Shown here: positions 16,479 to 43,144 of the stretch, in pieces | Layout of the letters: each line of letters opens with the position of its first letter | Position numbering within the stretch: position 1 is the stretch's first letter | Assembly (NCBI RefSeq): GCF_024718545.1 | Contig: NZ_JAMXDB010000002.1 | Coordinates: 1-64,000 of the forward strand | Reading direction: 5' to 3' | Origin: Weissella fangxianensis | GTDB lineage: Bacteria > Bacillota > Bacilli > Lactobacillales > Lactobacillaceae | DNA: 64,000 nucleotides | The notes under the pieces: generated by a model | Told to the model about the DNA's origin: nothing | The model's input: the letters and a program-made list of their open reading frames with translations, nothing else | The model's database searches: none | Translations under genes and position numbers: made by a program

Positions 16479-16551
16479 GGACAAGTAGCTCAGTTGGTAG
16501 AGCAACGGACTCTTAATCCGTGGGTCCAGGGTTCGAGCCCCTGCTTGTCCA
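16479..16551 (+). tRNA. tRNA-Lys (CTT), copy 1
   Basis: A 73-base cloverleaf: acceptor GGACAAG pairs with CTTGTCC, D stem GCTC/GAGC, anticodon loop CTCTTAA giving anticodon CTT, and T loop TTCGAGC. CCA is not encoded. The mature sequence is identical to two further copies 2.5 kb away. Confidence 0.97.
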
Positions 16552-18955: not shown

Positions 18956-19028
18956 GGACAAGTAGCTCAGTTGGTAGAGCAACGGACTCTTAATCCGTGG
19001 GTCCAGGGTTCGAGCCCCTGCTTGTCCA
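18956..19028 (+). tRNA. tRNA-Lys (CTT), copy 2
   Basis: Identical in sequence to the copies at 16479 and 19139, with anticodon CTT and no encoded CCA. It is divergent from guaB. Confidence 0.97.
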
Positions 19029-19138: not shown

Positions 19139-19211
19139 GGACAAGTAGCTCAGTTGGTAGAGCAACGGACTCTTAATCCGTGGGTCCAGGGTTCGAGCCC
19201 CTGCTTGTCCA
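19139..19211 (+). tRNA. tRNA-Lys (CTT), copy 3
   Basis: A 73-base gene identical to the other two, 110 bp after copy 2. It has its own promoter and terminator, so the copies are separate transcription units rather than one array. Confidence 0.97.
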
Positions 19212-38539: not shown

Positions 38540-39943
38540 TTACTGACACAAACGCCAAATCGATTCTGCAAAAATTGCCATCGATCGCGTTAAATTAGCC
38601 ACTGGTGTAAATTCATTGGCTTGATGGCTAGTTACCTTCACATCAGGGAATTGACCGCCAAAGGCAACACCTCTTTTCAATAACCGCGCATATGAACCAC
38701 CATTAGATGTCCGTGGCGGTAAATATTGTCCAGTTTGTGCTGCATAAACCTCAGACAAGGTGCTTACTAATTCATCATCAGTTGCGACTAAGTGTGGTGG
38801 CATACCAGCTTGAACATTAGTGACCTCAGCCGCTAATTCACCCATATGTCGCTGGACCTGGGTAATGATTGCTTGCAGGTTAACCCCTTTTGGATAACGG
38901 AAATTAAGTAATATGTTTCCCTGACCGCGGTGGCTATAACGCATCACACCAATATTCAATGTTAACGCGCCCATCTTTTGATCACGGTAAGCTAATCCTA
39001 AATTCTTAGCATAAATATCTTGATGAACGGTTGTCCCCAAGAAATTCAAAAAAGCTTGTGCATCGCCACCAAATGGATATTGTTCCAAAAAATAAGCCAA
39101 ATATGTGCCGGCATTTTTACCATCAGCTGGATATGCCCCGTGAGCTTGCACACCATATAATGTTAATCGAACCGTTTCATTAATTTGTTGTACATTTCCT
39201 TCTAAGAAAGGATATTGTTCCAAAAAATCAGCGAAGTCCGCCGCAATCAACATCCCCTGTGGCACATTAATTCTAGCTTTTGCTTCCCCAGGAACAACAT
39301 TCGCCCGGTTACCTGATATAAATCGTTCTAAAATATAGGGACCTTCTGAAACACTTGGAAAACGTAGTTGTACGGTTTGAAAAGCTTTCTCACCATTCAC
39401 GACTGCAAAGGCGCCATCCGGTGAAAAGCCCATTGTCGGTTCACCCTCTTGTGCTAGATAATGCGGCATATCACACCAACCATTTTCTTCATCCGTACCA
39501 ATAATTAAACGTACCTTACGCTTCAAGACACGTCCCTGATCAGCAAGCATCTTCAATGCATAATATGCTTACGTCAAGTCGGCCTTCATATCTGCAGCAC
39601 CACGCCCAAAATATAGACCATCTAAAACTTCTGGGTTAAATGGCTGACGGAGCCAACCATCGCCTGCTGGAACCACATCGATATGCGTTAAAATCCCCAA
39701 CGACTCTGGCGCATCGGCTGGCCCAAATTCAATCCATGTCACCATGTTATCAACTCGTCCATAACGAAAACCATCTCGATTAGCTAATTCCTCCATTTTG
39801 GATAACGCACGAATCATATCAATCCCAAAAGGTGTTTGTGTTGTTTGCGTTTTTGAATCCAATACAGACGGAATTCGAACAATTTGATTTAAATCATTAA
39901 TCAAAGCTGCCTCGTACTGCTTTGCTTGTCTTACCCACGTCAT
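38540..39943 (-). pseudogene. pepV: M20-family dipeptidase (PepV-like) with in-frame stop
   Basis: A cytosolic zinc dipeptidase gene interrupted by one nonsense codon. The frame is continuous for 467 codons apart from TAA at 39569-39571. The first part (124 residues) has the metal His in ILTHIDVVPAGDGW and GRGAADMKADL. The second part continues with AYYALKMLADQG and the TDEENGW motif with the catalytic Glu, and it ends with the last metal His in TSHQANEF. Nothing else is damaged, so the stop is recent or an error. A split peptide pair from re-initiation at the TTG near 39556 is unlikely to be active, because the metal ligands are on both halves. Confidence 0.85.
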
Positions 39944-40016: not shown

Positions 40017-41351
40017 TTACAACTGTTCGCGTTTATGCTGATAGTAGTAGAAGACAGGTAATCCAACAAGTACCAAGGCAATTGAAATGACCGCTCCTGA
40101 AAAATCATTCATAATAGTTGAGCCAATCACAAACAACGCACCGATGATTGCCACCAATGGGGTCACTGGAAACAATGGTGTTTTAAATAAGGTTGTTGGA
40201 TCAACATCTTTATCAAGTTTTTTGTGACGTAAAATAAAGACACCAAAAAAGGCTGCCGTGTAAAAAATCCAAATAGTAAAAATTGCAATATCTGATAAAC
40301 GATCCACACCATTGGTATACAAGACGGCTAAAGTAATCGTCATTAACGAAACTGTTACAATCGCATTGGTTGGCTCTTGCGTTTTAGGTGTTAATCTTGA
40401 TAAATATTTGGGAAATAGCCCATCAAGTGACATCGCATACGCCATTCTTGGGAAAGAAATCATTTTACCATTTAACGTACCCAGCATAGAAATAATAATC
40501 GTGACACTCAATGCACGACCCCCAAACTCACCAAAAGCTGTTCGGACCACGGCAAATGTCGCATTATTTTGTAAGGCCACAATTTGATCAGATGGCAAAG
40601 CATGATACACCCCAAACGAAACGCCAACGTAAGCAACCACAATTAAACTCACACCGCCAACAATCGACCGAGGTAAATCACGGCGCGGATTCTTCAATTC
40701 ACCAGCGATATTGGCTAATAAAATCCACCCATCATAGGCAAACAAGGTTGCTAAAATCGCCATACCAAATCCGCCACCATGAGAAACAGTGTCTGAAACA
40801 GTTTGTCCTAATGCGTTGACCTTCCCAAAGAAAAGCCCATAGATAATTAAAATCGCAATTGGAATTAATTTGATTGACGTGGTAATCACTTGAAAACTAG
40901 CGGCAACGCGATTTTCGAAAAGATTGATTCCGGCAATAAAAACAATATAGCACACGGCAATCCAAGTTGCCGAACTTGTGGGTAACCCAAGAAAATTAGC
41001 CGTCAAAAAGGCTGCATATCCGGCAATTGATGCAATCACGGCTGGTGCATAAATAACTACCTGCATCCAACCAGTCAAAAATCCAGCAACTGGGCCATAT
41101 AATGACTCGATATAACTATACAAGCCGCCAGTCTTGGGTAAGCGAGCACCAATTTCTGCAATCGTTAAGCCCGCTGCCAAAGTAATAATACCGCCAGTTA
41201 ACCAAGCCAATAATCCTAAAGTTGACGAACCAGCCGTTTGTAAGACACCAGCTTGTTTAAAGAAGATCCCTGAACCAATAACTGTTCCAACAACTAACGA
41301 TAAGCCTGACCAAATGCCCATTGATCGTTTTAATTCAACTTGCTGTGGCAT
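40017..41351 (-). CDS. APC-family amino acid permease (LAT/SteT-like)
   Basis: A 12-helix amino acid transporter or exchanger of 444 residues. The first helix has the substrate-binding signature VVGTVIGSGIFFKQAG (about 20-35), and GGLYSYIESLYGP near 75-87 is also typical of the SteT/LAT branch. The start has AGGAGAA seven bases upstream. It lies behind a leader peptide gene rich in Asn codons and an alternative terminator, which implies that asparagine (or charging of its tRNA) sets expression. Asn, Asp, Ser or Thr exchange is therefore a reasonable guess, but the substrate is not shown by sequence. Confidence 0.92.
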   Translation of the reverse strand: MPQQVELKRSMGIWSGLSLVVGTVIGSGIFFKQAGVLQTAGSSTLGLLAWLTGGIITLAAGLTIAEIGARLPKTGGLYSYIESLYGPVAGFLTGWMQVVIYAPAVIASIAGYAAFLTANFLGLPTSSATWIAVCYIVFIAGINLFENRVAASFQVITTSIKLIPIAILIIYGLFFGKVNALGQTVSDTVSHGGGFGMAILATLFAYDGWILLANIAGELKNPRRDLPRSIVGGVSLIVVAYVGVSFGVYHALPSDQIVALQNNATFAVVRTAFGEFGGRALSVTIIISMLGTLNGKMISFPRMAYAMSLDGLFPKYLSRLTPKTQEPTNAIVTVSLMTITLAVLYTNGVDRLSDIAIFTIWIFYTAAFFGVFILRHKKLDKDVDPTTLFKTPLFPVTPLVAIIGALFVIGSTIMNDFSGAVISIALVLVGLPVFYYYQHKREQL

Positions 41352-41372: not shown

Positions 41373-41469
41373 AAATAAACAAAAAAGCAGTCAGCCAATT
41401 TAGTAATTGGTTGACTGCTTCGTAAGTTCTCACAGTTTAAGCGTTACAAAAACGCCCAATCACTAATTG
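41373..41469 (-). promoter_or_regulatory. Asn-responsive transcription attenuator of the permease
   Basis: Two exclusive structures are visible. Terminator: a 16-bp stem (41385-41400 with 41405-41420, one G-T), loop TAGT and a long T run on the minus strand. Antiterminator: 41456-41469 (CAATTAGTGATTGG on the minus strand) pairs with 41396-41410 (CCAATTACTAAATTG) over 14 bp with one G-U and one bulge, which takes away the upper half of the terminator. The upstream arm lies within the leader ORF and begins 15 bases after its sixth Asn codon. A ribosome stalled there would leave the arm free, whereas one moving on would cover it. Confidence 0.85.
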
Positions 41470-41517
41470 TGTTGAGTTCAAACGATTATTATTATTGTTA
41501 TTAATAAAATCAAACAT
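41437..41517 (-). CDS. Asn-rich leader peptide
   Basis: A 26-residue ORF beginning MFDFINNNNNNRLN and ending GRFCNA. Six consecutive Asn codons (AAT AAC AAT AAT AAT AAT, 41502-41485) are followed by a seventh three codons later. The ribosome site GGGGAGAG is well placed, about 9 bases before the ATG. The ORF stops 17 bases before the terminator stem. Composition, length and geometry match the leader peptides of amino-acid attenuators (compare trpL, hisL), with Asn as the sensed residue. The homologous use of T-boxes for this purpose in Firmicutes is absent here: I see no T-box bulge. Confidence 0.85.
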   Translation of the reverse strand: MFDFINNNNNNRLNSTQLVIGRFCNA

Positions 41518-41619
41518 TTGATGGTCTCTCCCCAATTAATGTACGTTTTTCTTTTTCGCTAGACAAATATTGACATGTTTTAAACAGCAAAACAATATCA
41601 ATTATCATTGATTATTATT

Positions 41620-43046
41620 TTAAGCTTCGTCATACCATGAATAATGGTACATTTCACCGGCTGGCTTATCAACACGTTCATAAGTATGTGCACCGAAGTA
41701 ATCACGCTGTGCTTGAATCAAGTTAGCTGGCAAAACTGCTGAACGATATGAATCATAATAAGCCACTGCCGCTGATAACGATGGCACTGGTACACCGGCT
41801 GCGGTTGCCAAAGCAATCACACGACGAGCAGATGCTTGATATGATTCCGCAATCTGCTTAAAGTAAGGTGCTAGCAACAAGTTATGTAATTCAGGCTTTT
41901 CATCATAAGCATCGGTAATGCGTTGCAAGAATTGGGCACGGATAATGGCACCAGCACGCCACAATTGTGCTAATTCACCAAATGGCAATGACCAATCATA
42001 ATGGTCTGATGCCATGCGTAATTGGTCAAATCCCTGAGCATATGACATCACCTTACCAAAGTAAAGTGCCTTACGGATATCTTCAGTAGTAGCGGCAATG
42101 TCACCGTCAAACTCATAATCTGGACCAGCTAGCACATCAGCGGCAGCAACACGATCCGTCTTTAATGCTGAAATATAACGGGCATAAACTGATTCAGTTA
42201 TCAATGATTGTGGTGCACCAACTTCCAAAGCTGATTGTGATGACCACTTACCAGTTCCTTTGTTACCAGCACGATCTAAAATCATATCAACCATTGGCTT
42301 ACCAGATTCCAAATCATCATCACGTGTCAAAATATCAGCAGTAATGTCAATCAAATATGAATCTAGTTCACCCTTATTCCAGTCAGCAAATGTCTGAGCC
42401 AAATCATCTTTATTCAGCTTTAAGACACGCTTTAAGATATCATAAGATTCAGCGATAAGTTGCATGTCACCGTATTCAATACCATTGTGGACCATTTTGA
42501 CATAATGACCGGCACCATTTGGGCCAATATACGTCACGGTTGGCTTACCATCTTCCGGCGCCTTAGCAGCAATTTCTTGCAAAACTGGCTCGACCAGATC
42601 GTACGCTTCACGTTGACCACCGGGCATCATTGATGGTCCCTGCAATGCACCTAGCTCACCACCAGAAACACCCATACCAATGAAGTTGATACCTGACTTC
42701 TCTAATTTATTAGAACGACGAATCGTATCCTCAAAGAAAGTATTACCACCATCGATCAGAATATCCCCCTTATCTAAGTATGTAACAACTCCTCAATGAC
42801 CGCATCCGTTCCAGCACCGGCCTTTACCATCAATAAAATTCGGCGTGGCTTTTCTATCGATGCCACAAATTCTTTAATTGAATAACTAGGTACAAATCCT
42901 GAATCAGGATGCTTCTCAACCAAGTCATCCGTACGTCCAGATGTACGATTGTATAACGCCACTTTGTAACCGCGCGAAGCAACATTTAATGCTAAGTTGC
43001 GACCCATAACGGCAAGTCCAACGACTCCAAACTCTGCTGTTGTCAT
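41620..43046 (-). pseudogene. gnd: 6-phosphogluconate dehydrogenase with one-base frameshift
   Basis: Oxidative decarboxylation of 6-phosphogluconate to ribulose 5-phosphate. The N-terminal part has [13 protein letters not shown] and the NADP-binding NRTS, then the frame breaks after IEELL. Near 42782 one base is missing: restoring a second C on the coding strand (CATAC to CCATAC) rejoins L-L-P-Y-L-D-K-G and [10 protein letters not shown] to the rest ([25 protein letters not shown]-like region, FNRTD-less C-terminus ending near YHYSWYDEA). The chosen start is ATG 43046 with an AGGGGGAA site 12 bases away. Loss would cripple heterofermentation unless another copy exists, so a sequence error must be considered. 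Confidence 0.85.
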
Positions 43047-43144
43047 ATTTATTATTTTCCCCCTATAATTGACAAAAAACATTCTATAGCTAATAGTATA
43101 ACGCGAGAATCTTAAAAAAGCATTACTTTAATCCAGCGAACAAT

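Follow-up and report, generated by a model that had tools for sequence, protein, structure and literature searches.

In the trp/his-type leader-peptide attenuators of enteric bacteria, a leader with control codons is followed by segments that can pair as 1:2, 2:3 or 3:4, with a terminator before the gene. The locus analysed here, found in a stretch of 64,000 nucleotides (the window), resembles them in its control codons, its three alternative pairings and a terminator 5' of the gene, but it differs in having Asn as the control amino acid, a permease as the target, a host in the Lactobacillaceae, a segment 2 that lies inside the leader ORF, and a weak 1:2 pairing.

The initial annotation of this stretch called ribosome-mediated attenuation uncommon in Firmicutes; it is indeed rarer than T-boxes, but the sections consulted of three papers (PMC5794164, PMC2965389, PMC9413887) hold precedents for Leu/Ile and His. 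In the ilv-leu operon of Staphylococcus aureus, a Leu/Ile leader-peptide attenuator is found in place of a T-box, and predicted attenuators in Lactococcus lactis and Streptococcus are cited in the same sections (PMC5794164). The likeness to our locus lies in ribosome-mediated attenuation in Firmicutes with no T-box, whereas the S. aureus leader has BCAA codons, belongs to biosynthesis, and has an antiterminator that pairs with the poly-U of the terminator (PMC5794164). His leader peptides are described for hisS/hisZ of bacilli (PMC2965389) and for his genes of the B. cereus group, Peptostreptococcaceae and Erysipelotrichales (PMC9413887); as seen in these excerpts, they also combine one-codon runs with a terminator and an antiterminator, but the codon is His, not Asn or Ser. 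For the his genes of Lactobacillales, the same excerpts name T-boxes and no leader attenuator (PMC2965389, PMC9413887). The portion consulted of PMC2494555 has a table with an Asn T-box ahead of an ABC transporter; Asn-specific T-boxes likewise sense uncharged tRNA, but they bind the tRNA directly. No T-box (RF00230) reaches the gathering score in the window, and none of the genome's 24 matches (13 above the cut-off) is on the window's contig (C22), so a T-box at the locus was rejected. Among the open-access matches listed (subscription papers and preprints were outside this scope), we recognised no description of an Asn leader, or of Ser/Thr leaders in lactobacilli.

Leader ORF, alternative hairpins and permease gene

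All features of the element are on the minus strand. The leader ORF (MFDFINNNNNNRLNSTQLVIGRFCNA, 26 aa) occupies 41437..41517 including the stop, with its ATG at 41517 and its TAA at 41439-41437, and is preceded by a Shine-Dalgarno (SD) site (GGGGAGAG, 41526..41533); start, SD-like site and Asn run are also seen in the listed Weissella loci. The control codons are six Asn codons (AAT AAC AAT AAT AAT AAT) at 41485..41502. The initial reading of a 26-residue peptide with a good ribosome site and six consecutive Asn codons was confirmed from the sequence, as was its spacing of exactly 15 nt (41484-41470) between the sixth Asn codon and the arm at 41469-41456. A short ORF with its own ribosome site is thus present 5' of the gene. 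Among 263 SD-led starts of ORFs of 10-45 aa in the whole window, only one, the Asn leader, contains a run of at least five identical residues. A promoter scan at the locus found no usable promoter.

Segment 1 (CTCAACAC, 41469..41476) lies 8 nt past the last Asn codon and pairs with segment 2 (GTGATTGGG, 41455..41463), which is both the 3' arm of the 1:2 hairpin and the core of the 5' arm of the antiterminator (the arm first noted as 41456-41469). The 1:2 hairpin (41476-41469 with 41463-41455) is weak and was absent from the initial annotation; because it is also present, the layout is the classical one of four segments. Segment 3 (CCAATTACTAAATTG, 41396..41410) serves as the 3' arm of the antiterminator and as the 5' part of the terminator. 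The pairing proposed between 41469-41456 and 41410-41396 was recovered with 14 pairs and one bulged base at -15.3 kcal/mol, an energy that 3 of 1000 shuffles of the downstream stretch reached (mean -8.4, sd 1.8). The intrinsic terminator hairpin (41385..41420, followed by a T-rich tract at 41384-41373) was scored at -20.1 kcal/mol; hairpin and T-rich tail stand as annotated, but instead of 16 full pairs there are 15 Watson-Crick pairs and one A.C mismatch. This terminator, which lies 5' of the structural gene, was missed by a simple terminator scan, which returned none. Segment 3 is common to 2:3 and 3:4, and sequence and folding agree with the earlier claim that the antiterminator arm excludes the upper terminator pairing. 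The 1:2, 2:3 and 3:4 pairings are mutually exclusive, with a weak 1:2 and sparse covariation in the Asn branch.

Folding also yields a nested hairpin of nine pairs (TTGGGCGTT / AACGCTTAA, 41437..41459) that shares bases with segment 2 and with the leader's stop codon, and is a partial competitor of the antiterminator. The region 41470-41373 folds at -32.9 kcal/mol (z -6.8), and for the leader part (41517-41411) the folding energy does not stand out from that of its shuffles (z -0.61).

The controlled gene (40017..41351, 444 aa) encodes a LAT-type (APC) amino-acid permease according to NCBIfam, Pfam and the nearest solved chains; it begins at 41351, 3' of the terminator, in agreement with what had been annotated. 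Its best NCBIfam match is TIGR00911 (L-type amino acid transporter; 207 bits, under the cut-off of 702), its Pfam family is AA_permease_2, and the nearest solved chains are 9h76 and 6f2g. The permease reaches no NCBIfam cut-off, and the family models leave its substrate unsettled. It is 97% identical to the W. thailandensis permease and 93% to that of W. paramesenteroides; judged from sequence, the source genome is a Weissella near W. thailandensis. A scan with the permease found no relatives in viral contigs.

The permease is downstream of gnd (named by eye), with the leader between the two genes. The gnd, permease and dipeptidase ORFs are unbroken in W. thailandensis (L032; gnd and dipeptidase named by eye). 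In the window, gnd is split in frame (41620-43082; 102 + 351 aa, versus 475 aa in L032), and so is the dipeptidase-like gene past the permease (38540-39943; 124 + 338 aa, versus 467 aa in L032); either assembly indels or recent decay may explain these broken genes. We note that the window also contains a purine riboswitch (RF00167, 18728-18830, minus strand, 49.1 bits) and three plus-strand tRNA genes (16479-16551, 18956-19028 and 19139-19211), which score 74.3 bits each and are possibly copies of one tRNA.

Conservation in Weissella and folding with a simulated ribosome

We compared 27 best-match loci in the genus (L001-L027): an Asn run (N5-N7) is present in 15, two mix Asp and Asn, and 10 have neither. 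L027 belongs to a paralogue, many of the 27 duplicate records that also appear among the named loci, and the four confusa-type loci are near-copies. In the loci with an Asn run, the leader ORF starts about 154-182 nt 5' of the permease. No Asn leader was detected at the orthologue loci L017, L018 and L020-L026. We aligned 16 Weissella leaders, of which 14 have tandem Asn control codons (N5-N7) and two, from W. muntiaci and W. oryzae (L039 and L040), mix Asp and Asn (DDNNDD and DTNDDN); such a mixed leader is perhaps a sensor of both amino acids. AAT and AAC interchange inside the Asn run, ACTCA and TGATTGGG are invariant in all 16 aligned leaders, and the last control codon is 5-8 nt from segment 1 and 19-23 nt from segment 2. 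Each of the 17 Weissella loci whose leader is of the Asn or Asp/Asn type has a terminator-like hairpin, with a T-run that begins 28-45 nt before the permease start. Past the Asn run, the frame differs between clades (RLNSTQLVIGRF versus LHSNANCDWVV), and in two strains of W. viridescens (L041, L042) a 1-nt indel past the run leads to another peptide end and stop, with N5 and the arms unchanged. Judging from the alignment, it is the RNA that is conserved, not the second half of the peptide.

The seven pairs of the 1:2 hairpin (CTCA-nn-CAC / GTG-AT-TGGG) are kept in all 15 distinct rows, and in W. viridescens CAC/GTG becomes CAT/ATG, so that one of the seven pairs has changes on both sides. When the 3' partners were slid by 1-3 columns, 10-43% of the cells were paired; with columns shuffled, three of five measures were reached by 3 of 500 shuffles, and the other two by 125 and by all 500. 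For the 2:3 helix, 90.8% of the cells are paired (28-54% in slid controls), and, depending on which of the five measures is taken, 27-172 of 500 column shuffles do as well. RNAalifold brought no gain on the Weissella set, the terminator columns being out of register between clades. The comparison with relatives bears out conserved Asn codons and conserved pairing, and so passes the conservation test by which the initial annotation could have been refuted, with sparse compensatory change in the Asn branch.

We also built a covariance model of the leader (R1) from the 16 leaders, which match it by construction. R1 matches 18 of 28 Weissella genomes (and has no match in the other 10): in 17 the match is directly upstream of the orthologue, and in one (G004) there are two matches beside orthologue fragments. 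With stricter filters, eight of a sample of 301 Lactobacillaceae genomes match, all of them Weissella. AsnRS was found in all 28 Weissella genomes, which makes the direct charging of tRNA-Asn a usable signal.

We folded the transcript up to segment 3 with a simulated ribosome, whose footprint was assumed to mask the RNA as far as 14 nt from the A-site codon's first base, and scored pairing free of register (with fixed columns, 5 of 17 Ser rows gave 0.00 when stalled). A ribosome stalled on the final Asn or Asp codon of the run gives a mean P(2:3) of 0.88, above 0.5 in all 16 Weissella leaders, and one at the stop codon gives 0.00 in all 16. The earlier claim that a stalled ribosome leaves the arm free is thereby supported in folding, and, for the assumed 14 nt, the computed spacing is such that a stall frees segment 2 and a ribosome at the stop covers it. 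P(2:3) averages 0.79 with no ribosome, and 0.31 when segment 3 is shuffled under a stalled ribosome; the five core 2:3 pairs give 0.94 (stalled), 0.00 (stop) and 0.85 (no ribosome). The 1:2 pairing in the nascent Weissella RNA has a probability of 0.00-0.62, which a stall lowers little (from 0.44 to 0.36 in the window) and raises in 4 of 16 rows. As the antiterminator is favoured even with no ribosome, repression in the Asn branch would rest on translation reaching the stop codon. The model suggests that the Asn-branch switch depends mainly on segment 2 being masked by a ribosome that reaches the stop, and that an untranslated leader of this branch would mostly read through, contrary to the textbook scheme.

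Ser and Ser/Thr leaders in the wider family

Ser or Ser/Thr leaders were found at the same position, 5' of related permeases, in 9 of 64 non-Weissella loci among L047-L111 (L049, L061, L063, L066, L070, L071, L078, L082 and L098); the leader of Lactobacillus johnsonii, MKYLHRTNLNTSSSSSSTSSGT, is an example. Ser-type leaders are also present in 13 of 80 stretches (75 genomes), chosen among the matches listed. Fifteen stretches are common to both sets, including one Ser leader (L070 = L210), and the 129 stretches together contain 21 distinct Ser-type leaders. ORFs flagged by the leader filter in eight other loci of the 80 were judged by eye not to be such leaders, and the filters detected no leader in the remaining loci of the 129 stretches. 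The Ser and Ser/Thr leaders (of some Lactobacillus and Limosilactobacillus orthologues and of the Weissella paralogue described below) resemble the Asn leader in position, CTCA motif, 1:2 pairing, a TGAG/TGGG segment 2 and a downstream terminator; they differ in their Ser/Thr codons and in a stronger 1:2. In genus g43 (L239, L248, L249 and L250), the related permease has a T-box candidate instead (44-61 bits, under the gathering score of 93).

We aligned 17 of the 21 Ser-type leaders, leaving out three near-copies (L061, L181, L188) and L049; some near-copies are still in this set. RNAalifold predicts 18 pairs for it, 13 of them with changes on both sides. For the Ser-type 1:2 hairpin, 91.8% of the cells are paired, with 16 double changes (slid controls 29-48%), and its covariation score of 0.358, versus 0.140, was reached by none of 500 shuffles. 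For 2:3, 90.5% of the cells are paired (slid controls 25-52%), and shuffles reach the measures in 11-200 of 500. When the simulated ribosome was placed on codon four of the run, or on the final codon where the run was shorter, the Ser/Thr leaders (n=17) have a mean P(2:3) of 0.85, above 0.5 in all 17; the value is 0.01 at the stop (below 0.05 in 16 of 17), 0.42 when segment 3 is shuffled, and 0.23 with no ribosome. Because of the stronger 1:2, the state with no ribosome is mostly off, and the model predicts that an untranslated Ser-branch leader mostly terminates.

A model of the Ser leaders (R2) matches 19 of the 301 family genomes in 28 places: 14 before a LAT gene (13 of them in or near the building set of the model), one before the Weissella paralogue, and the other 13 before a different permease (L299 and L301-L312, in the three genera g5, g6 and g31, with kinship judged by eye). 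The leaders before these 13 permeases are rich in Thr/Ser control codons, e.g. MQIYNDSIIHHLTSTSTTTTITVVE and LTSTSTTTT. Two of the 13 permeases were tested, and for both the best NCBIfam match is the Thr/Ser transporter ThrP (557 and 564 bits, under the cut-off of 850); at these ThrP-like permeases, the control codons agree with the likely substrate.

Weissella has a second permease, 53-60% identical to the first, that often has a Thr/Ser leader; in the source genome this leader is MTNLKNMQINNSTSSDSTVLPSS, with hairpins CTCAACTG...CAGTTGAG. Twenty stretches were obtained, of which we analysed the 12 from paralogues (the other eight belong to permeases of 48% identity or less): nine have such a hairpin inside a short ORF, one has only a terminator-like hairpin, and two have none. 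On a tree of 59 permeases (leader labels set by eye; L098 dropped as too short), Asn versus Ser/Thr leaders require one change, or five changes when leaderless is a third state. The Weissella paralogues (nine with Ser/Thr leaders, one leaderless and one left unassigned) are the sister group of the orthologue clade with Asn leaders, with a support of 99 (SH-aLRT, a quick method, and the tool warns of long branches). The Asn and Ser/Thr leaders share the CTCA motif, segment 2, position and permease kinship, and for this reason homology is favoured over convergence. As Ser/Thr leaders are also found in Lactobacillus, the simplest reading is that the Asn version was derived after a duplication, probably from the wider Ser or Ser/Thr class of the Lactobacillaceae.

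Proposed mechanism, rival readings and meaning

The locus has every anatomical feature of an attenuator that sequence analysis can test, and the element is real and conserved. From its sequence and the folding models, we consider it highly probable that it is a classical (trp/his) ribosome-mediated transcription attenuator with Asn as the control amino acid; the Asn run is kept despite synonymous variation and the arms are kept despite the change of frame, and both argue for this reading, as do the ribosome-coupled folding and the similar Ser/Thr leaders. The weak 1:2 hairpin, an antiterminator favoured even with no ribosome, the negative promoter scan and the 10 Weissella genomes with no R1 match weigh against it. 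The leader most likely lets the bacterium switch on an amino-acid importer when Asn-charged tRNA is short. In the proposed scheme, translation of the leader ORF would keep pace with RNA polymerase as it moves through the region. If Asn-tRNA is plentiful, the ribosome would reach the stop codon and cover segment 2, so that the 3:4 terminator forms and the permease is off. When Asn-tRNA is short, the ribosome would stall on the Asn run, extending no further than the first bases of segment 1 and leaving segment 2, 19-23 nt away, free to form the 2:3 antiterminator, which would permit read-through into the permease. Sequence, comparison and folding show the parts, their conservation, their mutual exclusivity and the dependence on a ribosome at the stop codon; from these we infer the translation of the leader, the stalling by uncharged tRNA-Asn, the transcriptional response and the import of Asn (or Asp/Asn) by the permease.

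The rival that survives best, though we regard it as improbable, is that the leader senses a general slowing of translation (by antibiotics or broad amino-acid starvation) and that the Asn run is just a convenient slow stretch. By the logic of the folding, segment 2 would stay free wherever in the first half of the ORF the ribosome stalled, as this rival needs; against it, the runs are made of one or two amino acids per lineage, the Asn and Ser/Thr leaders differ wholesale, and the two tested permeases behind Thr/Ser leaders best match a Thr/Ser transporter family. There is a very small chance that the same RNA switch acts mainly on translation or RNA stability. Termination in vivo is a prediction from the sequence, which leaves room for such an action, but the hairpin runs into a T-tract and, at 34-69 nt from the permease start, does not cover that gene's ribosome site.

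Equally slight is the chance of a neutral AAT repeat downstream of gnd, with the upstream gene's ordinary terminator behind it. The stretch is repetitive and rich in A and T, it sits between gnd and the permease, and AAY x5 is not enriched as such: it has five matches in four places of the 1.97 Mb genome, versus six for the reversed control pattern (of the other three places, L168 and L172 are inside longer same-strand ORFs and L171 is antisense to an ORF). Against this, the run is kept across Weissella clades with AAC/AAT interchange, an SD site, near-fixed spacing and the alternative pairing, and an SD-led ORF with N6 did not arise in any of 2000 dinucleotide-shuffled leaders; we rejected this rival, which the leader alignment had already largely refuted. 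That the peptide itself is a functional small protein is just as implausible and was also rejected: its start and Asn run are conserved, but its C-terminal half is in different frames between species, and even between the two W. viridescens strains, with shifting stops.

Returning to the attenuator, we lean, with some reserve, towards an undescribed class in the Lactobacillaceae in which the RNA switch has been inherited along with its permease while Ser or Ser/Thr control codons were replaced by Asn (and, in W. oryzae and W. muntiaci, further by Asp/Asn), so that the leader reflects what the transporter carries. If this holds, the class would be a natural record of attenuator re-programming after gene duplication; because sister genes have different control codons in a like RNA frame, it offers ready-made swaps for testing the evolution of attenuators. 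If the attenuator reading is true, Asn, and in the wider class Ser and Thr, would join the amino acids sensed by leader-peptide attenuators in Firmicutes, and classical attenuation would control transport genes alongside the many T-boxes of the same genome (24 matches). The control codons would then also give a sequence-only hint at the substrates of LAT-type permeases.
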